Source: Caballeronia sp. (GTDB lineage: Bacteria; Pseudomonadota; Gammaproteobacteria; Burkholderiales; Burkholderiaceae). From it: a DNA stretch of 42,764 bases. The notes under the pieces were generated by a model, which searched no databases, was not told the origin of the DNA, and saw only the letters and a program-made list of their open reading frames with translations. The number at the start of each line of letters is the position of its first letter. Positions within the stretch are counted from its first letter, which is position 1. Below are positions 502 through 16,853 of the stretch, piece by piece. The position numbers were made by a program, and so were the translations under genes. The stretch covers positions 1 through 42,764 of the forward strand of contig NZ_JAQGMM010000587.1 of assembly GCF_028292365.1 (NCBI RefSeq), read 5' to 3'.

Positions 502-539
502 ATGCGGATTTATTATGGTTTATAACAAGATGTTATGAG
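502..539 (+). repeat. 38-bp direct repeat, copy 1
   Basis: Identical to the copy at 564-601 except for two adjacent bases (36 of 38). The element contains an inner palindrome ATAAC-N5-GTTAT, and the two changed bases fall in its loop, so the stem is preserved. A DnaA-box-like TAATCCACA lies just upstream at 491-499, one mismatch from TTATCCACA. Role unknown: operator, iteron-like site or mobile-element end are all possible. Confidence 0.8.
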
Positions 540-1478: not shown

Positions 1479-2189
1479 GTGGGTACGAAAGTCGAAGGGC
1501 AATTTCCGGCAGCAACGGCCCGTATGGGAAGGCCAGGGCGCCCGCGTGAGTTTGGGCGCAAGCAACAAAACCCAGTACGCCGCTTCGGCGGCATCGCTGT
1601 TGTTCTGCTCCTGCACATCGTGCTGATCTATGCACTCATCAATGGCCTTGCCACCAAGGTCGTACAGGTCATCCAGCATCCTATCGAAACGAAAATCATC
1701 GAGCCGGTGAAGCCACCTCCGCCGCCTCCATTGCCCACCGTGCAATTGCCGCCGCCGAAGTTTGCACCGCCGCCGCCGCCGTTCGTGCCTCCGCCGGAAG
1801 TGCAGGTGCAAACGCCGCCGCAGCCGACCATCACGCACCAGACCGCGCCGGTGGTGTCGGCTCCCGCTGTAGCGCCACCCGCTCCACCGGCGCCGCCCGC
1901 CCCGACCAAGCCGGTGAGCACCGAGGTTGGCGTCGTGTGTCCGAACTCGGACCAGATCCGGTCCTCGATCCGCTACCCGAAGGAAGCTCAGGACAACAAT
2001 GTGACGGGCGATGTGCTCATCGAATTCGTAGTCGACCCGCAGGGCCACATCACGAATGAACGCGTTGCCAAGTCGGCAGACGATTCCTCACTCGATCGCG
2101 CAGCCTTCAACGCGGTCAAGCAGTTCACGTGCGTTTCCCAAGGCCAACCCGTCCGTGTGCAAGTTCCGTTCTCGTTTAACCTGAACTGA
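1479..2189 (+). CDS. tonB: TonB energy transducer
   Basis: Periplasm-spanning TonB protein that carries proton-motive energy from ExbB/ExbD to outer-membrane receptors. The GTG start at 1479 is chosen because GGAGGAG (1467-1473) sits 5 nt upstream; the frame stays open to 1362 but lacks such a site. The product is 236 aa: a short basic N-terminus, one membrane segment (about 38-57), a long proline-rich spacer (about 78-145) and a TonB C-terminal domain (about 150-236) with the YPKEA motif at 166-170. Its own exbB and exbD genes follow directly, so this is a self-contained TonB set. The proline tract throws long empty frames on the opposite strand. Confidence 0.93.
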   Translation: MGTKVEGQFPAATARMGRPGRPREFGRKQQNPVRRFGGIAVVLLLHIVLIYALINGLATKVVQVIQHPIETKIIEPVKPPPPPPLPTVQLPPPKFAPPPPPFVPPPEVQVQTPPQPTITHQTAPVVSAPAVAPPAPPAPPAPTKPVSTEVGVVCPNSDQIRSSIRYPKEAQDNNVTGDVLIEFVVDPQGHITNERVAKSADDSSLDRAAFNAVKQFTCVSQGQPVRVQVPFSFNLN

Positions 2190-2267
2190 TCCCCCACTGG
2201 CTGTTCGGTACCGGTAGCGATTTATCAGTCTTGGTTTAGAAGTTGTACTAATGAACATGGAGCAGGC

Positions 2268-3179
2268 ATGAAAAAGCGTACTCTCGCCGCATTGGCGGCA
2301 ACCCTGTTGTTCGCCGTAACCACGGTGGATACCTTTGTGGCACCACATATGGCCCACGCGCAAGCTAGCGACGCGACTGCGTCAGCTGCGGCCACTGGCA
2401 CCGCCACCGCCGCACCGCAAACGGCCGGCTCAGCCGCAGACCAGGCGGTACCGCCGCCGGAGCCGGCCACGTCCGAAACCGTCAACAACCCATACGGACT
2501 CGGCGCGCTCTGGAAGAACGGGGACTTTGTTGCACGCTTCGTGCTGATCCTGCTGGTGCTCATGTCGATGGGCAGCTGGTACATCATGATCACCAAGTTC
2601 TTCGAGCAGTTCCGCGCCAATCGTCGTGCGAAGAGCGCCGACGAACAACTGTGGACAGCGCCGTCGCTCGTCGAAGGCGCGAAGATGCTCGACGAGGCCT
2701 CGCCGTTCCGCTTCATCGCCGAGACAGCTATTGAAGCGGGCGAACATCACAACGAAGCACTGCTTGAAGCCGTCGACCGCAACACGTGGATAGACACCTC
2801 GGTTGAGCGTGCGATCACCAACGTATCGAACCGCCTGCAGGACGGCCTGGCTTTCCTCGGCACAGTCGGCTCGACAGCGCCGTTCGTTGGCCTGTTCGGT
2901 ACGGTGTGGGGGATTTATCACGCGCTGACGGCAATCGGTATCGCTGGTCAGGCTTCGATCGACAAGGTCGCAGGTCCGGTGGGTGAAGCGCTGATCATGA
3001 CCGCGATCGGCCTCGCCGTGGCTGTGCCGGCGGTACTTGGCTACAACTTCCTGGTTCGCCGCAACAAGTCGGTGATGGAGCGGGTTCGTGCGTTCGGCGC
3101 ACAACTGCACACCGTCTTGCTCGCCGGCAGCCGGCGCTCGGCGCGCGCTACGGCTCGCGAAACAGCGCTGGCCCAATAA
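2268..3179 (+). CDS. exbB: ExbB/TolQ/MotA-family proton channel protein
   Basis: Inner-membrane channel subunit that pairs with ExbD and drives TonB. The protein is 303 aa, longer than E. coli ExbB, because of a cleavable-looking signal peptide (1-32, ending AHA-Q) and an Ala/Thr/Pro-rich stretch (33-70). Three membrane segments follow (about 88-108, 195-222, 240-265), the second containing the conserved GTVGSTAPFVGLFGTVWG region typical of MotA/TolQ/ExbB. GGAG (2259-2262) precedes the ATG. It lies 78 bp after tonB and 12 bp before exbD, in an apparent operon. Confidence 0.95.
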   Translation: MKKRTLAALAATLLFAVTTVDTFVAPHMAHAQASDATASAAATGTATAAPQTAGSAADQAVPPPEPATSETVNNPYGLGALWKNGDFVARFVLILLVLMSMGSWYIMITKFFEQFRANRRAKSADEQLWTAPSLVEGAKMLDEASPFRFIAETAIEAGEHHNEALLEAVDRNTWIDTSVERAITNVSNRLQDGLAFLGTVGSTAPFVGLFGTVWGIYHALTAIGIAGQASIDKVAGPVGEALIMTAIGLAVAVPAVLGYNFLVRRNKSVMERVRAFGAQLHTVLLAGSRRSARATARETALAQ

Positions 3180-3191
3180 GCGGAGTTCGTC

Positions 3192-3614
3192 ATGGCTATG
3201 AGCGTTGGGCAAGATGATGACGACGAGGTCATCTCCAGTATCAACACTACACCGCTCGTCGATGTGATGCTGGTCCTGCTGATCATCTTTCTGATCACGA
3301 TTCCGGTGGTGACCCATACGATTCCGGTGCAACTGCCGAAAGAGACGATCCAGCCACTGCAGACCACACCGAAAAGTATCGTCATTGCGGTCAATCGCGA
3401 CGGCGATTTCTTCTGGAACGAGAAGCAGGTGGATGGGCCGACGCTGCTGGCACGCCTGAAGACCGTATCGGTCATGACGCCGCAACCGGAAGTGCACGTT
3501 CGGGGTGACCAGAGCGCGCGTTATGAGTTCATCGGCCGGGTCATTACCGAGTGCGAACGCGCCGGTATCGCCAAGGTTTCGTTTATTACTGAGCCGCCTG
3601 CGCGGGGCGGCTAG
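3192..3614 (+). CDS. exbD: ExbD/TolR-family protein, first copy
   Basis: Partner of ExbB in the proton channel. The protein is 140 aa with one membrane segment (about 24-42) and a periplasmic domain. The conserved membrane Asp is present (D24 in INTTPLVDVML), so the proton path should work. GGAG (3182-3185) precedes the ATG at 3192. The next gene encodes a second ExbD 19 bp downstream. Such exbD pairs are known from Xanthomonas-type tonB-exbB-exbD1-exbD2 clusters. Confidence 0.95.
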   Translation: MAMSVGQDDDDEVISSINTTPLVDVMLVLLIIFLITIPVVTHTIPVQLPKETIQPLQTTPKSIVIAVNRDGDFFWNEKQVDGPTLLARLKTVSVMTPQPEVHVRGDQSARYEFIGRVITECERAGIAKVSFITEPPARGG

Positions 3615-3633
3615 CTTTGCAGGGGATCGCACA

Positions 3634-4065
3634 ATGGGAATGAACGTATCGTCGGGTGGTGGCAGCGCTGAACCGGATGTGATGGTCGATATCAACACCA
3701 CGCCGCTGATCGACGTGATGCTGGTGTTGCTGATCATGCTGATCATCACAATTCCGATCCAGACGCACGCCATAAAGATGAACATGCCGATCGGCAATCC
3801 GCCGCCGCCGATCACGCAGCCTGAAGTGGTGCAGATCGATATCGACTTCGACGGCACCACGACCTGGAACGGTCAAGCGGTGCCGGATCGTGCGGCGCTC
3901 GAATCCAGGCTCGCACAGGTGGCGGCTGAACCGGTGCAGGCGGAAATTCATCTGCGGCCGAACAAGCTGGTGCCGTACAAAGATGTCGCGGCGGTGATGG
4001 CGTCCGCTCAGCGATTGGGCGCGACGAAAATCGGCCTGATCGGCAATGAGCAGTACATGCAATAG
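3634..4065 (+). CDS. exbD: ExbD/TolR-family protein, second copy
   Basis: Second ExbD of the cluster, 143 aa from the ATG at 3634, which has an AGGGGA site about 10 nt upstream; an in-frame ATG at 3640 is an alternative. The frame is open to 3505, but that extension overlaps the first exbD and is unlikely to be translated. The conserved Asp is kept (D27 in INTTPLIDVML). The periplasmic half differs clearly from the first copy, so the two are not a recent duplication and may form a mixed channel or have distinct roles. Confidence 0.94.
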   Translation: MGMNVSSGGGSAEPDVMVDINTTPLIDVMLVLLIMLIITIPIQTHAIKMNMPIGNPPPPITQPEVVQIDIDFDGTTTWNGQAVPDRAALESRLAQVAAEPVQAEIHLRPNKLVPYKDVAAVMASAQRLGATKIGLIGNEQYMQ

Positions 4066-4074
4066 GGAAGTGGA

Positions 4075-5280
4075 ATGCTAACGATCCATCAACGATTCAA
4101 ACGGGCCGTCATGGCGGCTGCTATTGGAGGACTGTCCGCGCTCGTCGTGCTGCCGGTGACGGCTCATGCCGCGGACACGTTGCGCCCGGATGTGGCGAAG
4201 CCGCTGAACGCCGCGCAGGATCTGTATCGCGCGCACAAGTACAACGATGCATTGACGAAGATCGATCAGGCAGCTGCCGTTCCGGGCAAGACCCCGTATG
4301 AAAGCACCATGGTCGAAGAAATGCGCGGCGCTGCAGCGGCAGCGGCAGGCAACAACGCTGTGGCTGCCCAGGCCTACGAAACGTTGCTGAGCTCAGGGCA
4401 CCTGAGCGGCGCCGACGAACAACGCACCACCGCGGCACTTGCGGGCATCTACTTCCAGGAAAAGAACTACACACAGGCTATCAAGGTCGCGCAGCGCTAC
4501 CTGAAGTCAGGCGGCGGCGATCCCGATATGCGCACGTTGCTCGTGCAGTCTTACTACCTGTCGAACGACTGCGGCAATGTGGTGAGCTTGCTCAAGCCCG
4601 TGGTCGACGCACAGGTGCGTGCCGGCCATGCGCCCGATGAGTCGCAACTGCAGTTGCTTGGCACGTGCGCGCAGCGTGTGAAAGATGACACGACGTACCG
4701 CGGTGCGCTCGAAAAATTGGTGGCCTATCACCCGAAGCAATCCTACTGGGACGATCTGTTTCAATCGATCCGCACGAAGCCGGGCTATTCGTCGGTGCTC
4801 GATATCGACACCTATCGGCTGCGTCGCGCAACCGGTTCGCTCGCGACCGTCGACGACTACATGGAGATGACGCAACTCGCGATCGTGGCGGGTACCACGG
4901 CCGAGGGCAAGCAGGTGATCGACCAGGGTTTCACATCGGGCGTTCTGGGCCACGATGCACAGGCGGATCGCGAAAAGCGGTTGCAGGCGCTGGCCGTGAA
5001 GCGGGCGCAAGCGCCGGCTGATTCGGCGAACCCTGTGGCGCCGGTCGACATCGGCTTCAATCAGGTCTTCACCGGGCAAACCAAGCAGGGACTCGCAGCC
5101 ATGGAGGCGGCGATCGCGAAGGGCGGACTCGATCACCCTGACCAGGCGCAGTTGCATCTCGGCGTGGCTTACTACGTGGCAGGCGACAAAGTTCGCGCAG
5201 TGCAAACGTTCCGTGCGGTGAAAGGCTCCGACGGTTCAGCTGACCTCGCCCGATTATGGGTGCTGGTGGCGTCGAAGTAA
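4075..5280 (+). CDS. Exported TPR-repeat protein of the TonB cluster
   Basis: The product is 401 aa with an N-terminal signal peptide (about 1-32, ending AHA) and helical repeat pairs of TPR type: an A-x2-LY-x2-HKYNDAL segment near 45-60, another near 115-145, and a last one near 350-390. It starts 9 bp after exbD2 with GGAAG upstream and is surely co-transcribed. TPR proteins accompany TonB2-type systems in marine gammaproteobacteria, where they help the TonB complex. A similar accessory role at the inner face of the outer membrane or in the periplasm is inferred. No enzyme motif was seen. Confidence 0.85.
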   Translation: MLTIHQRFKRAVMAAAIGGLSALVVLPVTAHAADTLRPDVAKPLNAAQDLYRAHKYNDALTKIDQAAAVPGKTPYESTMVEEMRGAAAAAAGNNAVAAQAYETLLSSGHLSGADEQRTTAALAGIYFQEKNYTQAIKVAQRYLKSGGGDPDMRTLLVQSYYLSNDCGNVVSLLKPVVDAQVRAGHAPDESQLQLLGTCAQRVKDDTTYRGALEKLVAYHPKQSYWDDLFQSIRTKPGYSSVLDIDTYRLRRATGSLATVDDYMEMTQLAIVAGTTAEGKQVIDQGFTSGVLGHDAQADREKRLQALAVKRAQAPADSANPVAPVDIGFNQVFTGQTKQGLAAMEAAIAKGGLDHPDQAQLHLGVAYYVAGDKVRAVQTFRAVKGSDGSADLARLWVLVASK

Positions 5281-5590
5281 CGGTATCCCGGCTCCCACGT
5301 GTCCCATCCTGCGAAGTGCCGCCGAACTATCAGTGCATTGAACCGGGTGGCGCGTGCTGGCCGTGTGGAACGCAGGTCTCCGAAAGTAGAGGGCGATGGT
5401 TGCGTACGTAATCAACGTCCGCATCGTCCGGCTTTAGAGAAGTGCGAAAGTGTCCCGACGATCGCATTGACTGAACCATCCATCGCGGCAACTAACCGGG
5501 CATATGGCGAGTGTCTCAGGGAGGATGCTGCATTCAATAAAACATAGTTTGGTATACAAACTAATTTTGACCACGGGATTCTGTCTTGCT
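5281..5590. other. Intergenic region between TPR gene and regulator
   Basis: No gene is supported here. A frame at 5299-5547 has neither a ribosome site nor family resemblance. The only structure noticed is at the right end: the palindrome at 5546-5562 and promoter elements at 5567-5595. No hairpin-plus-T-run terminator was recognised after the TPR gene. Confidence 0.5.
5546..5562. promoter_or_regulatory. Palindromic operator candidate (AGTTTG-N5-CAAACT)
   Basis: Perfect 6-bp arms around GTATA, 17 bp in all, ending 4 bp before the TTGACC -35-like element at 5567. Its placement directly upstream of the XRE-cupin gene fits autoregulation by that dimeric HTH protein. No second copy was found in front of the receptor gene at 6546 or tonB. 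Confidence 0.5.
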
Positions 5591-5595
5591 ATGGT
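5567..5595 (+). promoter_or_regulatory. Sigma70-like promoter overlapping the regulator start
   Basis: TTGACC (5567-5572), a 17-bp spacer and TATGGT (5590-5595). The -10 element overlaps the most plausible ATG (5591), so either translation starts further downstream from a rare start codon or the real promoter lies upstream and this match is fortuitous. Confidence 0.4.
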
Positions 5596-6166
5596 TTTGC
5601 CACTCGATAACAAGGCACAGGTCGCAGTTTCCATAGGAAGTAAAATTCGCGCGCTTCGCCAACGGCTCAAGCGCACGCTGGATGAAGTGGCAACGACTGC
5701 AGGGATTTCCAAGCCGTTTTTATCGCAGGTGGAACGAGGTCTTGCAACGCCTTCCATTACATCTCTGGTCGGCATTGCGCGAGCTCTGGGCGTGACGGTG
5801 CAGTACTTCGTTGACACGCCAACCGAAGACAAATCGGTGCGTAGAGGGAGTGAGCTGAACTACTTCGGGTTCGACGGAACCGCGAATCGTTTCGGAAGGC
5901 TGACGAACCTGTCCGTCGGCGGTCAATTGGAGGCGATTCTTGTCAGGATGCCGGTGGGACAGAATCCATCGGAAGTCACGACACATGCAGGGGAAGAGTT
6001 CCTGTACGTGATGAGCGGCCAGATATCGCTTACGTTAGAAGGTACAACGTTCTTGTTACAGGCTGGGGACACCGCGCATTACGAGTCCACTGTGCCTCAC
6101 GCCTGGTGCAATACCGCTCGCGAAGAAGCGGTGATTGTATGGGTGGGCACACCCAGATTGTTTTAG
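5591..6166 (+). CDS. XRE-family regulator with C-terminal cupin sensor domain
   Basis: Transcription regulator of 191 aa from ATG 5591. An XRE helix-turn-helix (about 14-70) is followed by a cupin_2 beta-barrel (about 110-188) with the HAGEEFLYVMSG segment at 132-143. Such proteins bind DNA as dimers and sense small ligands through the cupin. An upstream ATG at 5504 would add 29 residues unlike the family and would overlap the palindrome, so 5591 is preferred, though no strong ribosome site is visible. It stands between the TonB energiser genes and the receptor gene, so control of the import locus is a reasonable inference. The nearby palindrome suggests autoregulation. Confidence 0.85.
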   Translation: MVLPLDNKAQVAVSIGSKIRALRQRLKRTLDEVATTAGISKPFLSQVERGLATPSITSLVGIARALGVTVQYFVDTPTEDKSVRRGSELNYFGFDGTANRFGRLTNLSVGGQLEAILVRMPVGQNPSEVTTHAGEEFLYVMSGQISLTLEGTTFLLQAGDTAHYESTVPHAWCNTAREEAVIVWVGTPRLF

Positions 6167-6545
6167 GCCCCTTTGCTTCGTACTTTCTTTGGAAGCAATC
6201 GCCTTGTATTTGTAAGCATTGCTGATTGTTATATGAAAGGTTGGTCGGTTGGATGGAAAGGCATTGCCCGGTCCATCACGCAAAGTAGTTGAAGTTAAAA
6301 AAACTAAGAAGCGCTGCGCATTTCGTTTGCACTAGATAAGTAGTCCGATATTGAAGTATGTGAAGTGCCCCGTCTTTTTGTCTGCATGTGCAATTTGGTG
6401 CGCTGTTGGCCAGTTTGCCGGGCAGTAGAAGCGCGGGTCAGCTTTAACGGAGCGCGGCGCAAGAACGCCGTATATCGAGTGGCGAGGTTCACAAGACCTC
6501 ACCTCACACACAGCTGTGCCTTACTTACGAGCGAGAAGGGGAAAA
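6167..6545. other. Leader region of the TonB-dependent receptor gene
   Basis: No gene is supported. An imperfect inverted repeat (AGCAAT 6194-6199 with ATTGCT 6218-6223, plus CTT/AAG inside) lies just after the regulator stop but lacks a T-run. TTGCAC (6327-6332) and TATTGA (6349-6354) with a 16-bp spacer are a weak promoter candidate for the receptor. No Fur-box-like sequence was recognised. The ribosome site GAGAAGGGG ends 4 nt before the ATG at 6546. Confidence 0.4.
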
Positions 6546-9290
6546 ATGAAACAACGGGCATTGGCGCTGGCCATCAAAAGAATAGTCTGGGCTGAGTTAG
6601 CATTATCAGCCGCATTCGCCGTACCGGCGTTTGCGCAAAGCCAGCCGGCCACCACAGGAACCGCGGCAGGCGCAACGACTACGGAAAGTGCGCCGGCAGC
6701 GGCAGTGGCGGCGCCAGCATCTGGCACTGCTGCAACGCCGTCCGCGGACAACAACACCGCGACACCGACTGCTGAAAAGGGCGTCCAGCAAATCAAGAAA
6801 TTTGAAGTGACCGGGTCGCTGATTCGTAGCGCCGACAAGGTTGGCTTCAATGCGGTCCAGACGGTAACGCAGAAAGACATTCAGAACAGCGGCGCCACGA
6901 CCGTAGCCGATTATCTGCGCACGACCTCGGCCAACTCGGCGAACAGCTGGGGCGAAGGCCAGTCCGGCAACTTCGCCGCAGGCGCGGCGGGTATCGCTCT
7001 GCGCGGCCTGAGCGAAAAGTACACGCTCGTGTTGGTGGATGGACAGCGCGTTGCGCCGTTTGCGTTCTTCTCGAACAGCGTCGACTCCTTCTTCGACTTG
7101 AATACGCTGCCGTTGAACTCCATCGAGCGCATCGAAATTGTGAAGGCCGGTGCCGTGTCGCAATACGGCTCGGACGCCATCGCGGGTGTGGTCAACATCA
7201 TCACGAAGCATGACTTCCAGGGGCTGCAACTCGACGGCAGCTATGGCAGCGCCGTCAGCCAGGGCGGCGGCGCGGGCACGACCAAATTCGGCGTGCTCGC
7301 CGGCTTTGGCGATCTCAACGCCGATCGCTTCAACGTGACGGCCGCGGCAAGTTACTACAAGTCGAACGGCTTCACGCTTGCTGATCGTGACGCGACGAGC
7401 GGTCAGGATTTCACCAATCAGCCGGGCGGCCATTCGTTGCTCGCGCCGTCGTACTGGAATATGCCCGACGGCAGCGTGCAGGCATTGAACGGCTGTGCGA
7501 ATGGTGGCGCAGTACATCCCGCAGGCACCAACTCGCTGACATCTGGATTGCCGGGCACCATCTGCGGCTTCAACTCCGCAGAAAGCACGTCCATCGCGCC
7601 GATGACCGAGCGTTTGAACGCGAAGCTTCACGCTGATTTCAAGATCAACGATACGACGACGGCGTTCGGCGACTTCCTGATCAGCAGCAACAAGACGACC
7701 ACCAACGACGGTCTGTGGAACAATGTTGTCGGCAATCCGCAGGTCCCCGCACTCGTGTGGAACCCGCAGACCAAGCTGCTTTCGCCGTTCAACTTCAACG
7801 TGCCGGCGAGCAATCCGTACAACCCGTTCGGGGTAGCCACGCCACTCACGTATGCGTTCCCGAACGCGGTAGCGGAAGACACGTATTCCACCTACTGGCG
7901 CGCGTCAACGGGCCTCAAGGGTTCGTTCAACCTGCCGAACGGCGAGTGGGATTGGGCGAGCTCGGTCAGTCACTCGCAAAGCACGGTTTCGAACACCTAT
8001 ACGAACCAGCTCAACACCGCGGCGCTGACCAATATTTACCAGAACGGGACGTTCGATTTCTCGAATCCCGCCGCTACGCCGAACGGGCTCAATGGGCTGT
8101 ACCAGGATGCGAATAACCTGGCTATCTCGAAGCTCGATACCGTTGACGCGACGCTGTCTACTCCTCACCTCTTCAGTCTGCCAGCAGGCGATGTAGGCCT
8201 CGGCTTCGGTGCACAGTTCACGCACCAGAGCGAAGTGATGAACCCGGGTGCGGCGTTCGAAACAGGTCAGGTCATCAGCCCGAATCTCCAGACGGTGAAC
8301 GGTCAGCGCAACGTGGCTGCCGTGTATTACCAGGTGGACATTCCGATCGTGCGCGCGCTGACGTTCAGCCAGTCGGGCCGTTACGACCACTACAGCGATG
8401 TGGGTGGTGCATTCTCGCCGCGCTTCGCGTTGCGCTATCAGCCGGTTCAGGCGCTGACGATGTACACCTCGTATAACCGTGGTTTCCGTGCGCCGACGTT
8501 CGTTGAGAACAGCAACTCGCAAACGATGGGTATCCAGGTGGACCAGGCCACTGGTCAGAACTACACGTCGATCACGGAAGGCAATCCGGCCCTGAAGGCG
8601 GAGCGTACGAAAAACCTGACCATCGGCTTCGAGCTGTCGCCTACCCGTACGACTGATATCGGCCTGGACTGGTACAAGATTCGTGTCGATAACGTGATCG
8701 GCCAGGGCTCGCCTTCCCAGGTTGTCACCGACGCGGATGGGAATTTGCTGTACAAGGTCATCCCGTACGCGAACCTCGGCTATCTCGATACGAACGGTTT
8801 CGAGGGCACATTCCGTCAGTCGCTGCCGACGAAGACCGGGACGTTCACGTTGTCCGCGGACTGGGCTTACATCAACAGCTTCAAGCTCGGTGCCCCGGGT
8901 GCGTCGCCGGTGAATGGTGCGGGTAACGACTTCACCCTCACACAGCCGTTCGGCGGCAGCTTCCCGCGCTGGAAAGGGAACACCACCCTGGACTGGGCGT
9001 ACAACAAGTTTGACGCAGCGTTGACCTGGCAGTTCACCGGTCCGTACGCGCAGAATCTGGTTGCCGCCGGGCCGTCCCACGCGGGATCGTACAGCCAGTT
9101 CAACCTGATGATGACGTACACGGGCTTCAAGCACTGGACGATCTTCGGCGGCATCGACAACATCTTCAATCGTGCGCCGCCGTACGATGCAGTCTTTGCA
9201 AATGGCACGCTGGATCAGAATGGCTACGACCAGTCGCTCTACACGAACATTGGCCGTTTCGCGCAGGTCGGCGCAACGTACAAGTTCTGA
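6546..9290 (+). CDS. TonB-dependent outer-membrane receptor
   Basis: Outer-membrane gated beta-barrel of 914 aa from ATG 6546; an earlier in-frame ATG at 6516 would spoil the signal peptide. In order: signal peptide (1-30, ending AFA-Q), a low-complexity Ala/Thr/Pro linker (about 31-78), a likely TonB box (KKFEVTGSLI, 84-93), a plug domain (about 97-220) with the LRGL, LVDGQR and IERIEIVKAGAVSQYGSDAIAG-type signatures, then a barrel ending in aromatic Phe (TYKF). The class resembles receptors for larger organic ligands rather than small siderophore receptors, but the ligand cannot be read from sequence. Location between a tonB-exbB-exbD set and peptide-uptake genes suggests a peptide or peptide conjugate. 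Confidence 0.93.
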   Translation: MKQRALALAIKRIVWAELALSAAFAVPAFAQSQPATTGTAAGATTTESAPAAAVAAPASGTAATPSADNNTATPTAEKGVQQIKKFEVTGSLIRSADKVGFNAVQTVTQKDIQNSGATTVADYLRTTSANSANSWGEGQSGNFAAGAAGIALRGLSEKYTLVLVDGQRVAPFAFFSNSVDSFFDLNTLPLNSIERIEIVKAGAVSQYGSDAIAGVVNIITKHDFQGLQLDGSYGSAVSQGGGAGTTKFGVLAGFGDLNADRFNVTAAASYYKSNGFTLADRDATSGQDFTNQPGGHSLLAPSYWNMPDGSVQALNGCANGGAVHPAGTNSLTSGLPGTICGFNSAESTSIAPMTERLNAKLHADFKINDTTTAFGDFLISSNKTTTNDGLWNNVVGNPQVPALVWNPQTKLLSPFNFNVPASNPYNPFGVATPLTYAFPNAVAEDTYSTYWRASTGLKGSFNLPNGEWDWASSVSHSQSTVSNTYTNQLNTAALTNIYQNGTFDFSNPAATPNGLNGLYQDANNLAISKLDTVDATLSTPHLFSLPAGDVGLGFGAQFTHQSEVMNPGAAFETGQVISPNLQTVNGQRNVAAVYYQVDIPIVRALTFSQSGRYDHYSDVGGAFSPRFALRYQPVQALTMYTSYNRGFRAPTFVENSNSQTMGIQVDQATGQNYTSITEGNPALKAERTKNLTIGFELSPTRTTDIGLDWYKIRVDNVIGQGSPSQVVTDADGNLLYKVIPYANLGYLDTNGFEGTFRQSLPTKTGTFTLSADWAYINSFKLGAPGASPVNGAGNDFTLTQPFGGSFPRWKGNTTLDWAYNKFDAALTWQFTGPYAQNLVAAGPSHAGSYSQFNLMMTYTGFKHWTIFGGIDNIFNRAPPYDAVFANGTLDQNGYDQSLYTNIGRFAQVGATYKF

Positions 9291-9320
9291 TGCCGCTGTA
9301 GTCTGTTTGCCTGATGGAGC

Positions 9321-9366
9321 GGTCGCTTCGGCGCGCGTGATGCGGCGCCGGAGCGGCCTTGTTTCT
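9321..9366 (+). terminator. Rho-independent terminator after the receptor gene
   Basis: A 14-bp stem (9321-9334 with 9345-9358, two G-U pairs) with a 10-nt loop is followed by TTGTTTCT. It lies 30 bp after the receptor stop and separates that transcript from the binding-protein gene at 9480. Confidence 0.75.
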
Positions 9367-9479
9367 GGAATCACTGACCTTTCAATTCAATCATCGATCT
9401 TTCGACGCCTCATCGCATGACGTGCTCAAGGCTGCAGTCAAAGCCGAGCGCGGAAGTCACGAATACCAGGAGTTTCCAG

Positions 9480-11120
9480 ATGTTTTTCGCACCACGTCCT
9501 TGTCCTTCCATCCGGCTTCGCCGTGCATCCGCGGCACTTGCTCTGGGCGGCGTCATGCTCGCTGGCGCCGTGCAGGCGGCAATCGTTCCTCCCGGCGTGC
9601 AACTCGCCGCGAAGCAGGAACTGGTGCGCAACAACGGCACTGAAGTCGAGACACTCGATCCGAACGTGGCGGAGTCGGTACCGGCCAATACCGTTGCGCG
9701 AGATCTGTTTGAAGGGCTGACCGCGACGCGCGCCGACGGCGAGACGGTCCCCGGCGTCGCGGAAAAGTGGGAAATGAAGGACCCCACCACGTGGGTCTTT
9801 CATTTGCGAAAGAACGCGAAGTGGTCCAACGGCGAGCCGGTCGTTGCCGGTGACTTTGTCTACGGATCCCAGCGGCTCGTCGATCCAAAAACGGCTTCAC
9901 CGTACGCAACCACCTACGGCATGTTCCTGCTTAACGGAACAGACATTGTGGCTGGCAAGAAACCGGTGGCTTCGCTTGGCGTGAGCGCACCCGACCCGTA
10001 CACAGTCGAGATCAAGACGCCCTATCCGGTGCCGTTCCTGCCTGACCTGATGTCGAATACGAACTTTGGGCCGCTGAACAAGGCGGCCGTCGAAAAGTAC
10101 GGCAAGGACTGGACAAAACCCGGCAAGCTGGTCAGCAACGGCGCGTTCATGCTGAAGGACTGGCAGGTGAACAACCGCCTTGTGCTGGGAAAAAACCCGC
10201 AGTACTGGAATGCCGCTTATGTGCAATTGAATCAGGTTACGTATCTGCCTGTGGAAGACGAAAATACGGACGTGGATCTGTACAAGTCCGGCGGTGACGA
10301 CTGGGTGAATCAGCTTCCCTCGGGTACCTATGCCCGTTACAAACAGGAGTACCCGAACGAGATGCGCGCGGCACCCATGCTCGGCTTGCGCTATTACTCG
10401 TTCAACAACAAAGACCCGCTCCTGAAGGACGTGCGTGTGCGCAAGGCGCTGTCCATGGTCATCGACCGGGACATTCTCGCGCAGCGCGTGACTGCCGACG
10501 GCCAGATCCCGGCGTATGGCGTCATCGTGAAGGGCGTGAAGGGCGCCGACGTCAGTGCGTACGACTGGGCCTCGTGGCCAATGGCGAAGCGCGTGGACGA
10601 GGCGAAAAAGCTGCTGGCTGAGGCGGGCGTGAAACCTGGCACCAAGTTGCAGTTTGTCACCAACACGAGTGAGTATCACAAGAAGATGGCGATCTTCGCG
10701 GCTTCCGAATGGAAGACCAAGCTGGGCCTGGATACGGAAATCCAGGCGATGGAATTCAAGGTGCTGCTCAAGAAACGGCACGACGGCGACTACCAGATCG
10801 CACGCAACGGCTGGGTGGCGGATTACAACGACGCAAGCACCTTCCTCACGCTGGTTCAATGCGGTTCCGAGCAGAACGACAACCAGGCGTGCAACCCCAA
10901 AGCCGATGCGCTGATGCGCCAGGCGTCCAACTCCACCGACCCGGCTACGCGCCAGACATTGCAGACCGAAGCGGGCAAGGTGGCAATGGAAGATTATCCG
11001 ATGCTGCCGCTGCTCCAATACACGCTGGTGCGCTTGGTCAAGAGTTACGTGGGCGGTTATTCCACGAAAAACCCAATGGACCATTACCGCAGCGCGGACA
11101 TGTACATCATCAAGCATTGA
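9480..11120 (+). CDS. oppA: OppA/MppA-type peptide ABC transporter substrate-binding protein
   Basis: Periplasmic binding protein of solute-binding family 5, 546 aa from ATG 9480 with AGGAG at 9468-9472. A signal peptide (about 1-38, ending VQA-A) is followed by the OppA-like start (ETLDPNVAESVPANTVARDLFEGL region, about 58-80) and the FHLRKNAKWSNGEPV signature that marks this family. No oligopeptide permease genes of Opp type follow; the next genes are yejABEF. It may therefore deliver its ligand to the Yej permease or work with a permease elsewhere. It is separated from the receptor by a terminator and from yejA by 134 bp. Confidence 0.9.
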   Translation: MFFAPRPCPSIRLRRASAALALGGVMLAGAVQAAIVPPGVQLAAKQELVRNNGTEVETLDPNVAESVPANTVARDLFEGLTATRADGETVPGVAEKWEMKDPTTWVFHLRKNAKWSNGEPVVAGDFVYGSQRLVDPKTASPYATTYGMFLLNGTDIVAGKKPVASLGVSAPDPYTVEIKTPYPVPFLPDLMSNTNFGPLNKAAVEKYGKDWTKPGKLVSNGAFMLKDWQVNNRLVLGKNPQYWNAAYVQLNQVTYLPVEDENTDVDLYKSGGDDWVNQLPSGTYARYKQEYPNEMRAAPMLGLRYYSFNNKDPLLKDVRVRKALSMVIDRDILAQRVTADGQIPAYGVIVKGVKGADVSAYDWASWPMAKRVDEAKKLLAEAGVKPGTKLQFVTNTSEYHKKMAIFAASEWKTKLGLDTEIQAMEFKVLLKKRHDGDYQIARNGWVADYNDASTFLTLVQCGSEQNDNQACNPKADALMRQASNSTDPATRQTLQTEAGKVAMEDYPMLPLLQYTLVRLVKSYVGGYSTKNPMDHYRSADMYIIKH

Positions 11121-11254
11121 GCGCAGTGCCGCGTTTTTCATCCGGACGCATACGCCCGTTTCATTTTTCTGGCTTTGCTATGAACGAACCGCATCATCCC
11201 CTGAAAGTACTGGCGTCGTGCAATTCCCGTTCAAGACGATGGCGGCAGGCGACG

Positions 11255-13087
11255 ATGAACAGGGTTCTTTTCACGCTGGGCTTTACGGCACTGCTCGTTG
11301 CATCGCAAGCATTCGGGCGGCCGTCGATCGCGCAATACGACGAGCCGAAGTACCCGGCCAACTTCACGCATTTCGACTACGCGGACCCGGCCGCGCCGAC
11401 CAACGGCGACATGAATTTCCAGAACTGGGACGAACTGCAAAGCTACGATTCGATGAATCCGTTCCTGGTCCGCGGCGCGCCGGCGCCCGACCTGAAGAAC
11501 CTGATGTTCGACACACTGATGCAGCGAAGCTGGGACGAACTGGCGTCGGAGTATCCATTGATCGCGGACGACGTGGTGGTGACCCCGGACGGCAAGTCGG
11601 CCACGTTCCATATCAATCCGAAGGCGCGTTTTTCCAATGGCGATCCGATCACCGCTGCCGATGTGAAGTATTCATACGACACGTTGTCCAGCCGCGAGGC
11701 TGCGCCGATCTACAACTCGCAGTTCGCCAACATCAGCCGCGCGACCGTGGTCGATCGCCTGACGGTGCGCTTCGACTTCAAGGAAGCGCGCCGCGATGCA
11801 CCGTTGATCGCGGGTGACTTGCCGGTTTTCTCGCCGAAGTGGGGCATGAAAGCGGACGGCGCGCGGCCGCCGTTCGACCAGATATCGGATGTGCCGCCGG
11901 TGGCGAGCGGTCCCTACCTGATCGAGCAACGCAAGAACGACAAGCAGATCACGTACAGGCGCAACCCGGATTATTGGGCCGCTGACCTGCCGTCGCGACG
12001 CGGCATGTACCGCTTCCAGCGCGTGACGTTCCGGCTCTTCACGGATCACTACACCTCGCTGGAAGATTTCAAGGCGGGTCACACGGATCTGCGCGTGGAG
12101 TATTCGTCATCGACCTGGGCGCGCAAGTACATCGGCAAGAACTTCAGCAATGGATCGCTCAGGAAAGGCGAGTTCCCCGATGGCCCGGCACAGATGCAGG
12201 GCATGTTCTTCAATACCCGCAAGCCACTGTTCGCGGACGCCCGCGTGCGTCATGCGTTGACGCTCGCTTTCGACTATGACTGGCTGAACCGCCTGGCTTT
12301 CTACAATCAATACCGCCGCACGGGAAGTTACTTCCAGGATTCCCCGTTTGGCGCGCAGGGCTGGCCGGATGCGAAAGAGCTGAAACTGCTCGAACCGTAT
12401 CGCTCGATGCTCCCCGCCGCCGTGTTCGGTCCGATGCTGAAGCAGCCCGATACGGTGCCGCCTCACTCGTTGCGCGCCAATTTGCGGCAAGCCCAGGCGC
12501 TCCTGAACGATGCGGGCTGGCAGTATCGTGACGGCGCGTTGCGCAACGCCAGCGGCACACCAATGACCGTCGAGATCATGGACGACCAGCCCGGCATGGA
12601 CGAGGTCATCCTGCCGTACATCCAGCAGTTGCAGACGCTTGGCATTCAGGCACACCTGCGAGAACTCGACAGTGCGTTATACGAGAAGCGGATGGACGCG
12701 TTCGATTTCGACATGACCACGTTTATCTATGCGCCTGTCACCATTCCGGGCGGCGAACTGACGCGGCGTTTCGGCAGCGCGGCGGCCTCGCAGCCGGGCT
12801 CGGAGAATTACCCGGGTGTCCGTTCGAAAGCCGCCGACGCGATGATCGACGCTGCGTTGAAAGCGCAGACGCTAAGCGATCTTGAGACCGCGACGCGCGC
12901 GCTCGATCGTATCCTGATCAACGGGTATTACATCGTGCCGGAGTACTACGCACCAAATACACGCGTGGGGTATCGGTCACGAATGGGCTTCCCAAAGGTC
13001 TCGCCAACCTCTTACTACGCCGAGGACTGGCTGGTCGACTACTGGTTCGTGAAGGCGCCGTCCGCCGCTGCCGGTTCAACACACTGA
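11255..13087 (+). CDS. yejA: YejA-type peptide/microcin C transporter binding protein
   Basis: Periplasmic binding protein, 610 aa, close to the usual YejA length of about 600. The start at 11255 gives a clean signal peptide (MNRVLFTLGFTALLVASQAFG); an in-frame ATG at 11180 would add 25 polar residues and is less likely. Family-5 features include the NFTHFDYADPAAPTNG segment after the signal and a FHINPKARFSNGDPI motif near 117-131. In enterobacteria YejABEF imports microcin C and other peptides. Here the four yej genes are in the order A-B-E-F with gaps of 7 bp or less after yejA, a tight operon. Confidence 0.93.
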   Translation: MNRVLFTLGFTALLVASQAFGRPSIAQYDEPKYPANFTHFDYADPAAPTNGDMNFQNWDELQSYDSMNPFLVRGAPAPDLKNLMFDTLMQRSWDELASEYPLIADDVVVTPDGKSATFHINPKARFSNGDPITAADVKYSYDTLSSREAAPIYNSQFANISRATVVDRLTVRFDFKEARRDAPLIAGDLPVFSPKWGMKADGARPPFDQISDVPPVASGPYLIEQRKNDKQITYRRNPDYWAADLPSRRGMYRFQRVTFRLFTDHYTSLEDFKAGHTDLRVEYSSSTWARKYIGKNFSNGSLRKGEFPDGPAQMQGMFFNTRKPLFADARVRHALTLAFDYDWLNRLAFYNQYRRTGSYFQDSPFGAQGWPDAKELKLLEPYRSMLPAAVFGPMLKQPDTVPPHSLRANLRQAQALLNDAGWQYRDGALRNASGTPMTVEIMDDQPGMDEVILPYIQQLQTLGIQAHLRELDSALYEKRMDAFDFDMTTFIYAPVTIPGGELTRRFGSAAASQPGSENYPGVRSKAADAMIDAALKAQTLSDLETATRALDRILINGYYIVPEYYAPNTRVGYRSRMGFPKVSPTSYYAEDWLVDYWFVKAPSAAAGSTH

Positions 13088-13094
13088 GAGTGCC

Positions 13095-14144
13095 ATGGCC
13101 GCTTATATCCTGAGACGCCTGTTCCTGATGATCCCCACGCTGATCGGCGTGGTCACGCTGACGTTCTGCGTTACGCAGTTCGTGCCGGGCGGACCGGTCG
13201 AGCAGATCCTGACCCAGATGCGCCACGGTGGAAACCACGGTGGCGAGGCGGGCGGGGCTGGCGGGTATCACGGCAGCCAAGGGGTTGATCCCCAGCAGGT
13301 GGAGCAGCTCAAGAAGCAGTTCGGTTTCGACAAACCGCCGTTCGTGCGCTATTTGAGCATGCTCAAGAACTATGCGAGCTTCAATCTCGGCCAGTCGTAT
13401 TACCAGCATCAGAGTGTCTGGGCGGTGATCCGGTCGAAGCTGCCAGTGTCCATCACGCTGGGGCTCTGGACCGTGTTGCTGACCTACCTCATTGCAGTGC
13501 CGCTGGGGATCTCGAAGGCCGTGCGCAACGGCTCCCGGTTCGACACCGCCACGAGCGTGCTCGTGCTGACCGGCTACGCCATTCCGGGTTTTGTACTTGG
13601 CGTACTGCTGCTGATGCTGTTTGGCGGCGGGACGCTGTGGCAAGTGTTCCCCATGCGCGGCCTGACTTCCGACGACTTCGATCAACTCAGCATCGTGGGA
13701 AAAGTACTCGATTACCTGTGGCACATTGCACTGCCGGTGACAGCCGCGGTGGTCGGCAACTTTGCGATTATCACCATCCTCACGAAGAACACGTTCCTCG
13801 AGGAGATCAGCCGGCAATACGTGCTGACCGCGCGCGCAAAAGGTGCGCCGCAACGCGACGTGCTCTGGAAGCACGTACTGCGCAACGCAATGATTCCGCT
13901 CCTGACCGGGCTGCCGGCGGCATTTGTGGGTGCGTTCCTCAATGGCAACCTGCTGATCGAGACATTGTTTTCACTCGATGGCATGGGCCAGCTTTCCTAC
14001 GACTCGGTGATCCGGCGCGACTATCCCGTCGTGCTCGGTTCGCTCTACTTGTTCACCCTGATTGGTCTTGTGACCAAGCTTATTGCGGACGTGTGTTATG
14101 TCCTCGTCGACCCCCGTATCCAGTTCGACCGGCTCGACCGGTGA
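13095..14144 (+). CDS. yejB: YejB inner-membrane permease
   Basis: First permease subunit of the Yej ABC transporter, 349 aa, with a membrane segment at the N-terminus (about 8-30) and five more in the C-terminal binding-protein-dependent transport domain (about 120-340). The EAA loop region (ARAKGAPQRDVLWKHVLRNA) that contacts the ATPase is present at about 250-270. Between the first membrane segment and the core is a Gly/His-rich periplasmic stretch (about 45-65). E. coli YejB also has a Gly-rich insertion at this place. Starts 7 bp after yejA. Confidence 0.95.
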   Translation: MAAYILRRLFLMIPTLIGVVTLTFCVTQFVPGGPVEQILTQMRHGGNHGGEAGGAGGYHGSQGVDPQQVEQLKKQFGFDKPPFVRYLSMLKNYASFNLGQSYYQHQSVWAVIRSKLPVSITLGLWTVLLTYLIAVPLGISKAVRNGSRFDTATSVLVLTGYAIPGFVLGVLLLMLFGGGTLWQVFPMRGLTSDDFDQLSIVGKVLDYLWHIALPVTAAVVGNFAIITILTKNTFLEEISRQYVLTARAKGAPQRDVLWKHVLRNAMIPLLTGLPAAFVGAFLNGNLLIETLFSLDGMGQLSYDSVIRRDYPVVLGSLYLFTLIGLVTKLIADVCYVLVDPRIQFDRLDR

Positions 14145-14148
14145 GCGC

Positions 14149-15243
14149 ATGAACGTCTCTGCGGACCCGCTCATGGCGGCCATGACCCACCCGCCGCCGT
14201 CCGAGTCGCCCGGCCGGCGTGTATGGCTGCGTTTCAAGGCGCAGCGGCTGGGCTACTGGAGCACGATCGTGTTCGTCGGGTTGTTTATCATCAGCCTGCT
14301 CGGCGAGGTGCTGGCAAACGACAAGCCGCTGTTGGTCCGGTACGAAGGAACCTATTATTTTCCGATTCTGAAGGACTATTCGGAGAAAGTATTCGGCGGC
14401 GATTTTCCTGCGCGCACGAATTATCTTGATCCGTACATTCGCAACCGGCTGGAATCGAAGGGCAACTTCGCGATCTATCCGCCGAATCATTTTCACTACG
14501 ACACTGTCGACTATTTCGCGACCACGCCCAATCCGGCGCCACCCTCGGCCGCCAACTGGATCGGCACGGACCAGTTCGGCCGCGACGTCCTCGCGCGGCT
14601 GCTGTACGGTTTCCGGCTCTCCGTGCTCATGGCGCTTGCACTGACGGTTTCGGGCGTCTTGCTGGGCGTCCTGACGGGCGCTGTGCAGGGGTTTTACGGC
14701 GGGCGCACCGACTTGATCGGCCAGCGCCTGATCGAGATATGGAGTTCGATGCCCGACCTGTACCTGCTGATCATCTTCGCGTCGATCTTCGAGCCGACCT
14801 TGTGGCTGCTGTTCATCCTGCTCTCGGCGTTCGGATGGCTCACGCTGTCGGACTACGTGCGCGCCGAGTTCCTGCGCAACCGTTCGCTTGATTACGTTCG
14901 CGCAGCTCGCACGATGGGTTTGTCGAACTGGCAGATCATGTGGCGTCATGTGCTGCCCAACAGCCTGACGCCCGTGATCACCTTCTTGCCATTTCGCATG
15001 AGCGCCGCGATTCTCGCACTGACGAGCCTAGATTTCCTCGGCCTTGGCGTACCCGCGCCAACACCGAGCCTGGGCGAACTGCTCGCCGAAGGTAAAAACA
15101 ATCTTGACGCGTGGTGGATCTCCGGAGCGGCGTTCGGCGGCCTTGTTGTCACCTTGCTGCTGCTGACCTTCATGGGCGACGCATTACGCAACGCACTCGA
15201 TACCCGCACACGCGGTTCCGCATTCGGAGGCGCACAGAAGTGA
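14149..15243 (+). CDS. yejE: YejE inner-membrane permease
   Basis: Second permease subunit, 364 aa from ATG 14149, 4 bp after the yejB stop. The frame is open to 14083, but that extension lies inside yejB. It has one N-terminal membrane segment (about 39-60), a periplasmic region of about 90 residues rich in aromatic residues that is typical of YejE, then the IGTDQFGRDVLARLLYG motif and five further membrane segments. The EAA loop (VRAARTMGLSNWQIMWRHVL) is clear. It overlaps the GTG of yejF by 4 bp. Confidence 0.95.
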   Translation: MNVSADPLMAAMTHPPPSESPGRRVWLRFKAQRLGYWSTIVFVGLFIISLLGEVLANDKPLLVRYEGTYYFPILKDYSEKVFGGDFPARTNYLDPYIRNRLESKGNFAIYPPNHFHYDTVDYFATTPNPAPPSAANWIGTDQFGRDVLARLLYGFRLSVLMALALTVSGVLLGVLTGAVQGFYGGRTDLIGQRLIEIWSSMPDLYLLIIFASIFEPTLWLLFILLSAFGWLTLSDYVRAEFLRNRSLDYVRAARTMGLSNWQIMWRHVLPNSLTPVITFLPFRMSAAILALTSLDFLGLGVPAPTPSLGELLAEGKNNLDAWWISGAAFGGLVVTLLLLTFMGDALRNALDTRTRGSAFGGAQK

Positions 15244-16853
15244 CAGTCCCTCTGTTGCAACTCGACGGGTTATCGATTGGTTTCGGCGACAAGACTGTCG
15301 TACGCGACCTGAGTCTTTCTATCGGGCGTGGCGAACGCGTGGCGTTGGTGGGCGAATCCGGATCGGGCAAGAGCGTCACGGCGCTTTCCATCCTCGGTCT
15401 TGCGGACAATGCTCGCCAGACGGGGCGCATTCTGCTGGATGGCGACAACCTCCTGCAAAAGACCGAGCAGCAGATGCGCGGCATTCGCGGCCGCGACATC
15501 GCCATGGTCTTCCAGGAACCGATGACCGCGCTCAACCCGTTGTTCACTATCGGTAAGCAGATTGCCGAAAGCCTGCGTCTGCACGAAGGGTTGCGGCCGA
15601 ACGCTGCACGCCAGCGCGGCATTGAATTGTTGCGGCGTACCGGTATCCCCGAACCGGAACGACGTGTTGACAGCTTCCCGCATCAGCTCTCCGGTGGTCA
15701 GCGGCAACGCGCGATGATCGCGATGGCGCTTGCTTGCCGGCCACGCCTGCTGCTCGCCGATGAGCCGACCACGGCCCTCGATGTGACAGTGCGCCAGCAG
15801 ATAGTGGAGTTGTTGATCGGCTTGCAGGAACAGGAGGCGGCCGAGCGTGGCATGGCGGTGCTATTGATCACGCACGACCTGAACCTGGTCAAGCGCTTCG
15901 CGCAGCGTGTGGCGGTGATGGAGAAGGGCGTGCTGGTGGAAACCAATTCGACCGCGGAACTGTTCGCGAATCCGCAGCATCCTTATACACGCCGTCTGCT
16001 CAACAGCGAGCCCGAACGCGCGATCGATCCGGTAGCCTCGAACGCGCGGCGGCTGCTCGAGGTGCAGGGGTTGTCGGTGGACTACCGGACGTCGGTGAAG
16101 GGCTGGCGGTCCGTGTTTTCGAAGTCTTCCTTCCGCGCTTTGCAGGACGTCGGCATCACGCTGAGACGCGGCGAAACGCTTGGCATAGTGGGTGAATCCG
16201 GGTCCGGAAAGTCAACGCTCGCTGCCGCCATCCTGGGCTTGCAACGGCCGGCGGAAGGACTGATTCATATCGACGGGCAGTCCTTGTCCACGCTCAGGAG
16301 CGCGAACTCACGGCGCAGCGTGTCGTCGCGGCTACAAGTCGTATTTCAGGATCCCTACGGATCGTTGTCGCCACGGATGACGATCGAGCAGATCGTGGGC
16401 GAGGGGATTGCATTGCATCGGCCGGAGGTAACGGCAGCGGCACGTCGTCAGCGTGTGGTGGCGCTGCTTGACGAAGTGGGCATGCCGGCCGATGTCCTGC
16501 CGCGTTATCCCCACGAATTTTCCGGCGGCCAACGGCAGCGCATTGCGATTGCCCGCGCGCTTGCGGTCGAGCCTGAACTACTTGTACTCGATGAACCCAC
16601 GAGCGCGCTCGATGTGTCGATACAGCAGCAGGTGCTCAACTTGCTCACACGGCTGCAGAAAAAATACACGCTGACCTATCTGTTCATCACGCATGACCTG
16701 GCCGTAATGCGCGCGATGGCGCATAGGGTGGCTGTCATGAAGGCGGGGCGGATCGTGGAGATGGGCGACACAATGGACGTTTTGCAAGCGCCCGGGCACC
16801 CTTATACACAGGCGCTACTCGCGGCATCGATCGTAGCGAGCGCGGCGGCGTGA
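15240..16853 (+). CDS. yejF: YejF double-domain ABC transporter ATPase
   Basis: Energising subunit of the Yej transporter, 537 aa, with two fused nucleotide-binding domains. Domain 1: Walker A GESGSGKS (38-45), signature LSGGQ (150-154), Walker B LLLADEP (170-176). Domain 2: Walker A (318-325), signature FSGGQ (427-431), Walker B LLVLDEP (447-453). All catalytic motifs are intact. The GTG start at 15240 overlaps the yejE stop (GTGA), implying translational coupling. The frame extends upstream to 15111, but that part lies within yejE. Length matches E. coli YejF (529 aa). Confidence 0.96.
   Translation: MTVPLLQLDGLSIGFGDKTVVRDLSLSIGRGERVALVGESGSGKSVTALSILGLADNARQTGRILLDGDNLLQKTEQQMRGIRGRDIAMVFQEPMTALNPLFTIGKQIAESLRLHEGLRPNAARQRGIELLRRTGIPEPERRVDSFPHQLSGGQRQRAMIAMALACRPRLLLADEPTTALDVTVRQQIVELLIGLQEQEAAERGMAVLLITHDLNLVKRFAQRVAVMEKGVLVETNSTAELFANPQHPYTRRLLNSEPERAIDPVASNARRLLEVQGLSVDYRTSVKGWRSVFSKSSFRALQDVGITLRRGETLGIVGESGSGKSTLAAAILGLQRPAEGLIHIDGQSLSTLRSANSRRSVSSRLQVVFQDPYGSLSPRMTIEQIVGEGIALHRPEVTAAARRQRVVALLDEVGMPADVLPRYPHEFSGGQRQRIAIARALAVEPELLVLDEPTSALDVSIQQQVLNLLTRLQKKYTLTYLFITHDLAVMRAMAHRVAVMKAGRIVEMGDTMDVLQAPGHPYTQALLAASIVASAAA

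Follow-up and report, generated by a model that had tools for sequence, protein, structure and literature searches.

Several peptide antibiotics enter cells through YejABEF. How, then, do peptides that porins exclude reach such a transporter? The route by which peptides of more than 5 to 6 residues arrive at YejA has been stated as unknown (PMC10924461), and for phazolicin, which enters via BacA and YejABEF, the Tn-seq described found no outer-membrane uptake system (PMC10128002). Here, we report a block of 12 genes on a single 42,764-nt contig of Caballeronia sp. (NZ_JAQGMM010000587.1; assembly GCF_028292365.1, 8.08 Mb, 681 contigs, 98.75% complete, 5.7% contamination), which was analyzed at its full length and is hereafter called the window. 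In this block, a TonB-dependent receptor, its private TonB motor, and a distinct YejABEF paralog form a linked unit that has been conserved, and we consider it probable that this unit imports peptides of a length that porins exclude across both membranes. An earlier note on this DNA had described tonB, exbB, two exbD genes, a TPR protein, an XRE-cupin regulator, the receptor, OppA, and yejABEF as contiguous on one strand; all 12 were found intact on the plus strand at positions 1479 to 16853 (Table 1).

YejA was present (E ≤1e-100) in 130 of 150 Burkholderiaceae genomes, where its scores against the window YejA split: 28 copies (27 genomes) scored 895 to 1409 bits, and the other copies no more than 701 bits among the matches listed, which do not include the weakest. 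The high-scoring copies are 65 to 100% identical to the window YejA and the others at most 54% (again among the matches listed); copies outside the genus in wider samples of the order and phylum are 33 to 49% identical. The flanks of all 27 nonwindow high-scoring copies were retrieved and scanned, and a receptor of the window's family adjoins 27 of the 28 copies (window included). The sole exception (L217) has no receptor in the 17 kb retrieved, its contig ending on one side some 6 kb away from yejA; an open reading frame (ORF) of 403 aa lies directly upstream of its yejA. Beside ordinary yejA loci, a receptor of this family was found at 0 of 93 (79 from the wider samples and 14 from Burkholderiaceae, 11 of the latter from genomes that also hold a high-scoring copy), in a scan with profiles built from the window's receptor family, which could miss a very different receptor, and on flanks of which some were shortened by contig ends, so that a few links could be missed. 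The single window receptor sequence does detect Cir, PfeA, and BtuB. Given 27/28 versus 0/93, the link to a receptor characterizes one YejA clade, not yej loci generally, and chance adjacency of receptor and yej was rejected on the same counts.

In the wider samples, which include a few Burkholderiaceae members, yejA (E ≤1e-60) occurred in 25 of the 120 genomes from the order and in 112 of the 199 from the phylum. Flanks were taken from 20 of 27 places in the order and from 60 in the phylum among those listed, and 79 of these 80 were ordinary copies; the 79 gave no match to the receptor, ExbB, or ExbD profiles, one weak TonB-like match (L125, 28 bits), and three XRE-cupin-like matches. The 14 ordinary Burkholderiaceae loci gave no match to receptor, ExbB, ExbD, TonB, TldD, or PmbA.

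The block is common to Caballeronia, Paraburkholderia, Burkholderia, and Trinickia. Conservation in four genera thus takes the neighborhood beyond close strains, to which it might have been confined had the earlier note been mistaken, and the co-occurrence of receptor and yejA that the note had proposed to look for in Burkholderiaceae was seen, in the sample of 150 genomes, at 27 of the 28 clade copies. A receptor-anchored scan of genome contigs gave 65 loci (two of them, L012 and L016, on separate contigs of the same assembly), with full yejABEF in 46, part of it in 2, and none in 17 (60% identity threshold, retrieved flanks); L075, among the 17, is a spurious 32% match. Three or four of the window-type tonB, exbB, exbD1, and exbD2 were present in 42 of the 65. 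Outside Burkholderiaceae, 2 of 150 genomes of the order had a receptor match at E ≤1e-150, besides the window's own genome and one congener, and the flanks of both relatives showed no match to the other block profiles.

Architectures were compared in a table of 80 rows, in which the receptor-anchored and YejA-anchored sets overlap (e.g., L031 and L205, on contigs of equal length), so that rows are not independent. The commonest order was tonB-exbB-exbD1-exbD2-TPR-XRE-receptor-yejABEF-tldD-pmbA; the receptor precedes the motor in Trinickia and several other genomes. Two motor types occur, TonB-ExbB-ExbD1-ExbD2-TPR and a short ExbB with one ExbD and TonB, the second (L009, L010, L131, and L192) running divergently from the receptor. 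The slot after yejF holds TldD and PmbA, an AcrB-type resistance-nodulation-division (RND) gene, or a POT proton-peptide symporter (PF00854), the last in 3 of 80 rows (L043, L211, and L213, the contigs of the first two being equally long; in L211, the NCBIfam oligopeptide:H+ symporter model scored 350.7 bits, cutoff 130.2). With order, slot, and motor all varying, one operon with a fixed gene set was rejected. OppABCDF adjoins the receptor in L009. Loci of the Caballeronia type carry oppA between receptor and yejA, and tldD/pmbA were not found 3′ of their yejF; OppA stands in this position in Caballeronia-type and G116/G351 loci and is an addition in the window's lineage, not part of the common core. 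Three loci (L032, L041, and L207) have two tandem receptor genes ahead of yejA, which suggests that the receptor was duplicated within the unit.

Receptor half and pump half give conflicting relationships. As means over six Caballeronia-type loci, the motor, regulator, and receptor are 86 to 97% identical to one Paraburkholderia group, whereas YejA is 83% identical to that of G116/G351-type loci and only 72% to that of the same Paraburkholderia group; between the YejA of this group and that of the G116 type, identity is 71%. Between Caballeronia-type and G116/G351-type loci, the receptors differ (54%), and the motors differ too. The YejA tree (37 rows) places Caballeronia-type and G116/G351 loci in one clade (Shimodaira-Hasegawa-like approximate likelihood ratio test, 100), and forcing them together in the receptor tree (37 rows) costs 504 log-likelihood units (approximately unbiased test, p 0.0001); the trees were quick, without bootstrap, and the tested grouping was picked after the identity comparison had been seen. 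L213 is also mismatched, its receptor lying in the G116/s-type clade (support 100) and its YejA beside Trinickia symbiotica (95).

Judged by these comparisons, the window lineage is a hybrid of a Paraburkholderia-like motor-regulator-receptor half and the OppA-YejABEF half of loci with a different receptor and motor; on a simple reading, the latter would have replaced a YejABEF-TldD-PmbA half behind the Paraburkholderia-like receptor. The tree conflict indicates exchange, which makes receptor and pump interchangeable modules of one pathway. A receptor that stands with different Yej pumps argues against a single coevolved ligand, and with exchangeable modules the pump would probably serve a class of peptides, the receptor deciding which ones enter. 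The earlier note had proposed a dedicated outer-to-inner pathway for one peptide ligand. The uptake unit holds up, being kept in four genera with TldD/PmbA, POT, and opp partners that handle peptides; the single ligand is unsupported, in view of the exchanged halves, the two motor types, and the lineage-specific OppA.

The TldD/PmbA pair of relatives, which the note had overlooked, occurs in 32 of the 65 receptor loci. E. coli TldD has an HExxxH motif and a zinc-binding Cys near its C terminus, and TldD/E passes unfolded peptides along a narrow channel whatever their sequence (PMC5810440). Linked TldD scores 75.8 bits against E. coli TldD; HESIGH and a C-terminal CGK are each present in all 33 of its rows, and both are missing from the PmbA partner (0 of 31 rows), which carries the PmbA/TldD C-terminal domain and has no PDB sequence match. 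The division of motifs between the two proteins is thus that of TldD/E, from which the linked pair differs in being divergent paralogs encoded behind an importer in relatives of the window and not in the window itself. Since TldD/E handles unfolded peptides and the motif is kept, the pair would point to import of unfolded or modified peptides.

In the mechanism that we propose, import would begin with binding of a long, modified, or linear peptide to the receptor at the cell surface. Energy for its passage into the periplasm would come from TonB-ExbB-ExbD1/ExbD2, assisted by the TPR protein, as the families suggest; YejA (with OppA in the window lineage) would capture it there, and YejBEF would pump it to the cytoplasm, as in other YejABEF transporters. 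In many relatives, the TldD- and PmbA-type protease encoded right after yejF would shorten the peptide, whereas the window lineage, with no such pair after yejF, would rely on other peptidases. The XRE-cupin protein would likely switch the receptor and motor genes through upstream motifs. A broader reading, which we offer tentatively as a possibility, makes the block the missing outer-membrane half of YejABEF: every one of a set of interchangeable TonB receptors would let in its own kind of long or modified peptide and hand it over to a Yej pump common to them all and to a pencil-sharpener protease; natural-product peptides would in this way be eaten whole, from outside to inside. The proposed import by the block would supply the counterpart of YejABEF at the outer membrane, which the literature describes as unknown, and would mark a way by which peptide cargo naturally gets into Burkholderiaceae. 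With receptor, motor, and pump encoded together in soil bacteria, the question of outer-membrane entry is open to a direct gene-by-gene test.

Several observations weigh against the proposed peptide import. Yej genes are absent from the retrieved flanks of 16 of 64 genuine receptor loci, and the receptor family must therefore also serve elsewhere. A complete TldD/PmbA pair is lacking from the retrieved flanks of 14 of 46 full-yejABEF loci (some flanks end shortly after yejF), and the window has none after yejF, where a search for a remnant 3′ of the gene gave chance-level matches only. The closest resemblance of the receptor is to receptors for siderophores, heme, and B12; the model predicted for it is weak (mean predicted local distance difference test score, 63.8); and the relatives of YejA include MbnE, which binds a metallophore. 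Tyr136, Asp160, Ser475, and Asp476, which grip the arginine of the peptide bound by E. coli YejA, are Phe, Ala, Gly, and Glu in the window YejA (hand-read against chain 8fsr; eight counted positions agree with residues named in the paper), although a requirement for the four residues in other YejA proteins is not established. With these residues not kept, the ligand preference of the window YejA probably differs from that of E. coli YejA. Finally, in 26 of 80 rows the block is succeeded by the gene for an RND pump, which in itself is no peptide gene.

The receptor and MbnE findings could instead fit a metallophore system, in which the receptor would import a metal-loaded modified peptide (methanobactin-like, or another thioamide or azole) and YejA would act like MbnE. 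The closest solved relatives of the receptor are Cir, PfeA, PirA, and BtuB; Foldseek on the weak model ranks PirA, PfeA, Cir, FepA, PhuR, and BtuB first. The nearest folds are those of siderophore receptors, a ranking from which no ligand was deduced. MbnT/MbnE pairs a TonB-dependent receptor with an OppA-related binding protein for methanobactin, whose further import into the cytoplasm is called not completely understood (PMC7558416), and one receptor locus without yej (L008, on a Paraburkholderia megapolitana plasmid) adjoins a YcaO/TfuA/ThiF/MoaD cluster. The window YejA matches MbnE (5icq) at 316 bits but scores higher against solved YejA proteins (4ony, 366 bits; also 7z8e and E. coli YejA 7atr), and it aligns at nearly full length with both. 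L008-derived YcaO, TfuA, and ThiF queries match no other locus of the receptor comparison set, the recurrent neighbors include peptide degradation and peptide uptake genes, and no maturation enzyme was found among the 32 distinct window ORFs put to Pfam. We regard the metallophore system as unlikely.

MbnT/MbnE is the nearest precedent, and a partial one. A TonB receptor linked to a YejA-like binding protein is found in the window also; the block adds an inner-membrane ABC transporter and a TonB motor and, in relatives, often a protease. Among the same 32 ORFs, no methanobactin precursor or maturation family was matched, small precursor genes and the related loci not having been searched.

The RND gene bears on another alternative, import-and-destroy defense, in which toxic peptides of competitors or hosts would be taken in and degraded by TldD/PmbA or their remnants exported by the RND pump. 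In Brucella, YejABEF has been linked to resistance against antimicrobial peptides (PMC4994006); peptides of this kind are taken in and degraded by the Sap transporter (PMC3207918); and the AcrB-type gene in those 26 rows would supply the exporter. A private TonB receptor, however, would actively raise periplasmic toxin levels, and the RND gene (PF00873; e.g., L205:14757-17918) occurs with and without the protease pair alike. Defense is improbable, somewhat more so than the metallophore system.

Peptide import by a receptor-linked Yej pump remains our preferred reading, and the known Yej systems resemble the block in part. The window has yejA-yejB-yejE-yejF in the same order as YejABEF, with a substrate-binding protein (SBP) of family 5, two permeases, and a fused ATPase, and the N-terminal extension of YejA is present (residues 26 onward align with that of E. 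coli YejA). It differs in that the pump belongs to a separate paralog clade physically tied to a TonB receptor and motor and that YejB, YejE, and YejF fall below their NCBIfam cutoffs (Table 1). Ordinary Burkholderiaceae copies score 452.5 and 459.6 bits for YejB (over the cutoff), 385.5 for YejE, and 626.9 for YejF (both below); only the YejB cutoff separates linked from ordinary copies, because ordinary YejE and YejF also fall short. E. coli YejA has a cavity of 8253 cubic angstroms and was found with peptides of 10 to 19 residues, and the thermal shift assays reported with it gave no evidence of antimicrobial-peptide binding (PMC10924461).

In Agrobacterium, YejBEF-YepA imports muropeptides, with YepA as a second binding protein for YejBEF (PMC9790009); OppA might play that part in the window, where the likeness ends at the ligand, a muropeptide in Agrobacterium. 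Cell-wall peptide recycling or scavenging on this pattern would be a further alternative for the block. YepA is reported only in Alphaproteobacteria, and the word TonB is not in the main text of that paper (PMC9790009); recycling acts on periplasmic fragments, moreover, for which an outer-membrane receptor is not needed, and we consider it very improbable here.

A TPR protein encoded with the motor recalls TtpD2 of the Vibrio TonB2 system (425 aa; PMC6957404), and two exbD genes have precedents elsewhere, Xanthomonas among them (PMC3551730); the window motor differs from TonB2-type motors in sitting with one receptor and a peptide ABC transporter. A word search of the main text of a review of TonB-dependent uptake found no Yej, oligopeptide, or methanobactin (PMC11658791), and among the open-access papers listed, no title or visible abstract described a linkage of Yej or TldD/PmbA with TonB-dependent receptors. 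To that extent, the literature agrees with the earlier note, which knew of no described linkage of TonB motor, receptor, and Yej, with MbnT/MbnE as the partial precedent.

Upstream of the receptor lies a conserved putative operator (Table 1). Its consensus, WTTAGTAGTCCGATAYTAA, has one match in the window (2 mismatches; 0.00 expected) and, with ≤4 mismatches, occurs in 38 of 71 receptor upstream regions versus 4 of 1,420 simple shuffles, an enrichment that is descriptive, since the consensus was derived partly from the same upstream sequences. Among linked loci with enough upstream sequence, the motif is present in 30 of the 41 that carry an XRE gene and in 2 of the 13 that do not (Fisher p 0.0006, relatedness uncorrected). 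A related site stands before tonB (≤5 mismatches in 18 of 46 versus about 1% of shuffles; 6 mismatches in the window's own). These counts make the XRE-cupin protein a likely switch for the receptor and motor genes, acting via related upstream motifs. Against a simple link of the two, 11 linked loci, several of them Burkholderia-type, have the XRE gene without the motif, and the motif also stands before several orphan receptors (e.g., L025 and L027) that have no XRE gene nearby. The top NCBIfam match of the regulator is PuuR (59.7 bits, below the cutoff of 211).

Table 1. Features of the block in the window, with the evidence for each assignment
Feature	Positions	Strand	Size	Basis
tonB, energy transducer, GTG start	1479..2189	+	236 aa	PF03544 E 7.6e-17 on longer ORF; TIGR01352
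exbB, proton-channel subunit	2268..3179	+	303 aa	Pfam PF01618 E 1.1e-32
exbD1	3192..3614	+		Pfam PF02472 E 5.1e-28
exbD2	3634..4065	+		Pfam PF02472 E 4.7e-24 on longer ORF
TPR protein of motor cluster	4075..5280	+	401 aa	Pfam TPR_16
XRE-cupin transcription regulator	5591..6166	+	191 aa	Pfam HTH_3 and Cupin_2 on longer ORF
Conserved putative operator, ~210 bases before receptor start codon	6337..6354	+		Upstream alignment; consensus WTTAGTAGTCCGATAYTAA
TonB-dependent receptor, plug and barrel	6546..9290	+	914 aa	Pfam PF07715 and PF00593 over cutoff
OppA-type oligopeptide-binding protein	9480..11120	+	546 aa	Top PDB sequence match 3zs6, 565 bits
yejA paralog, peptide-binding protein	11255..13087	+	610 aa	PDB sequence matches 4ony, 7z8e, 7atr, 5icq
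yejB permease	13095..14144	+		NCBIfam NF011712, 429 bits vs cutoff 445
yejE permease	14149..15243	+		NCBIfam NF011596, 387 bits vs cutoff 439
yejF, two-domain ATPase	15240..16853	+		NCBIfam NF011713, 618 bits vs cutoff 834; two ABC_tran stretches

Successive gaps from tonB to yejF are 78, 12, 19, 9, 310, 379, 189, 134, 7, 4, and −4 bases, sizes from which the block probably comprises three to four transcription units rather than one operon; simple promoter and terminator scans gave no more matches than in shuffles. The likely tonB start is the GTG at 1479, preceded by a conserved purine-rich stretch, and the likely starts of the receptor and yejA are 6546 and 11255. Among other Caballeronia-type loci, TonB is 95 to 98% and the receptor protein 92 to 97% identical; the receptor gene DNA is 90.6% identical to that of Caballeronia sp. 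strains SBC1 and SBC2. No signaling domain was matched in the 914-aa receptor in Pfam. A second OppA elsewhere in the same genome is 81% identical and adjoins oppB. The yejB of Caballeronia sordidicola PAMC 26633 (L012:16600-17600) is matched by tblastn in two pieces and may be broken.

The 17 receptor loci without yej compared for their neighbors (L008 and 16 others, L075 excluded) share few of them. The L008 locus (L008:1-18505) has a receptor of the window's family (60%) and no yej genes. Next to the receptor stand two YcaO/TfuA pairs together with ThiF, MoaD, two MFS genes, and a cupin of the JmjC type, a set resembling a peptide cluster for thioamide formation; among the orphan-receptor loci, L008 is the one case suggestive of a ligand. 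Of the neighbors of other orphan receptors, two were put to Pfam, argS (L025) and a transpeptidase-domain protein (L061). On a Burkholderia stagnalis plasmid (L007:24247-34554), the block is followed over about 8 kb by TldD, PmbA, P450, MFS, insulinase-family, and radical SAM genes, among others, possibly a biosynthetic cluster.

Upstream of tonB, a direct repeat, atgcggatttattatggtttataac, lies at window positions 502 to 526 and 564 to 588; the first ORF of at least 100 aa starts at 1327 or later. Downstream of the block, a 366-aa minus-strand protein (16880 to 17980) without a Pfam or NCBIfam match adjoins it in several Caballeronia-type loci, followed by an SDR enzyme, a LysR regulator, and an N-formylglutamate amidohydrolase. 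Strong matches to these four were confined to Caballeronia-type loci in the receptor-locus comparison set, except that the 366-aa protein and SDR enzyme are also strongly matched in L131 (read from sequences). The window from 20008 to 41373 carries amino acid and peptide catabolism genes, among them those for the N-formylglutamate amidohydrolase, tryptophan 2,3-dioxygenase, an SBP family 3 protein with an AstE/AspA-like enzyme, and an M20 peptidase with a sodium:solute symporter.

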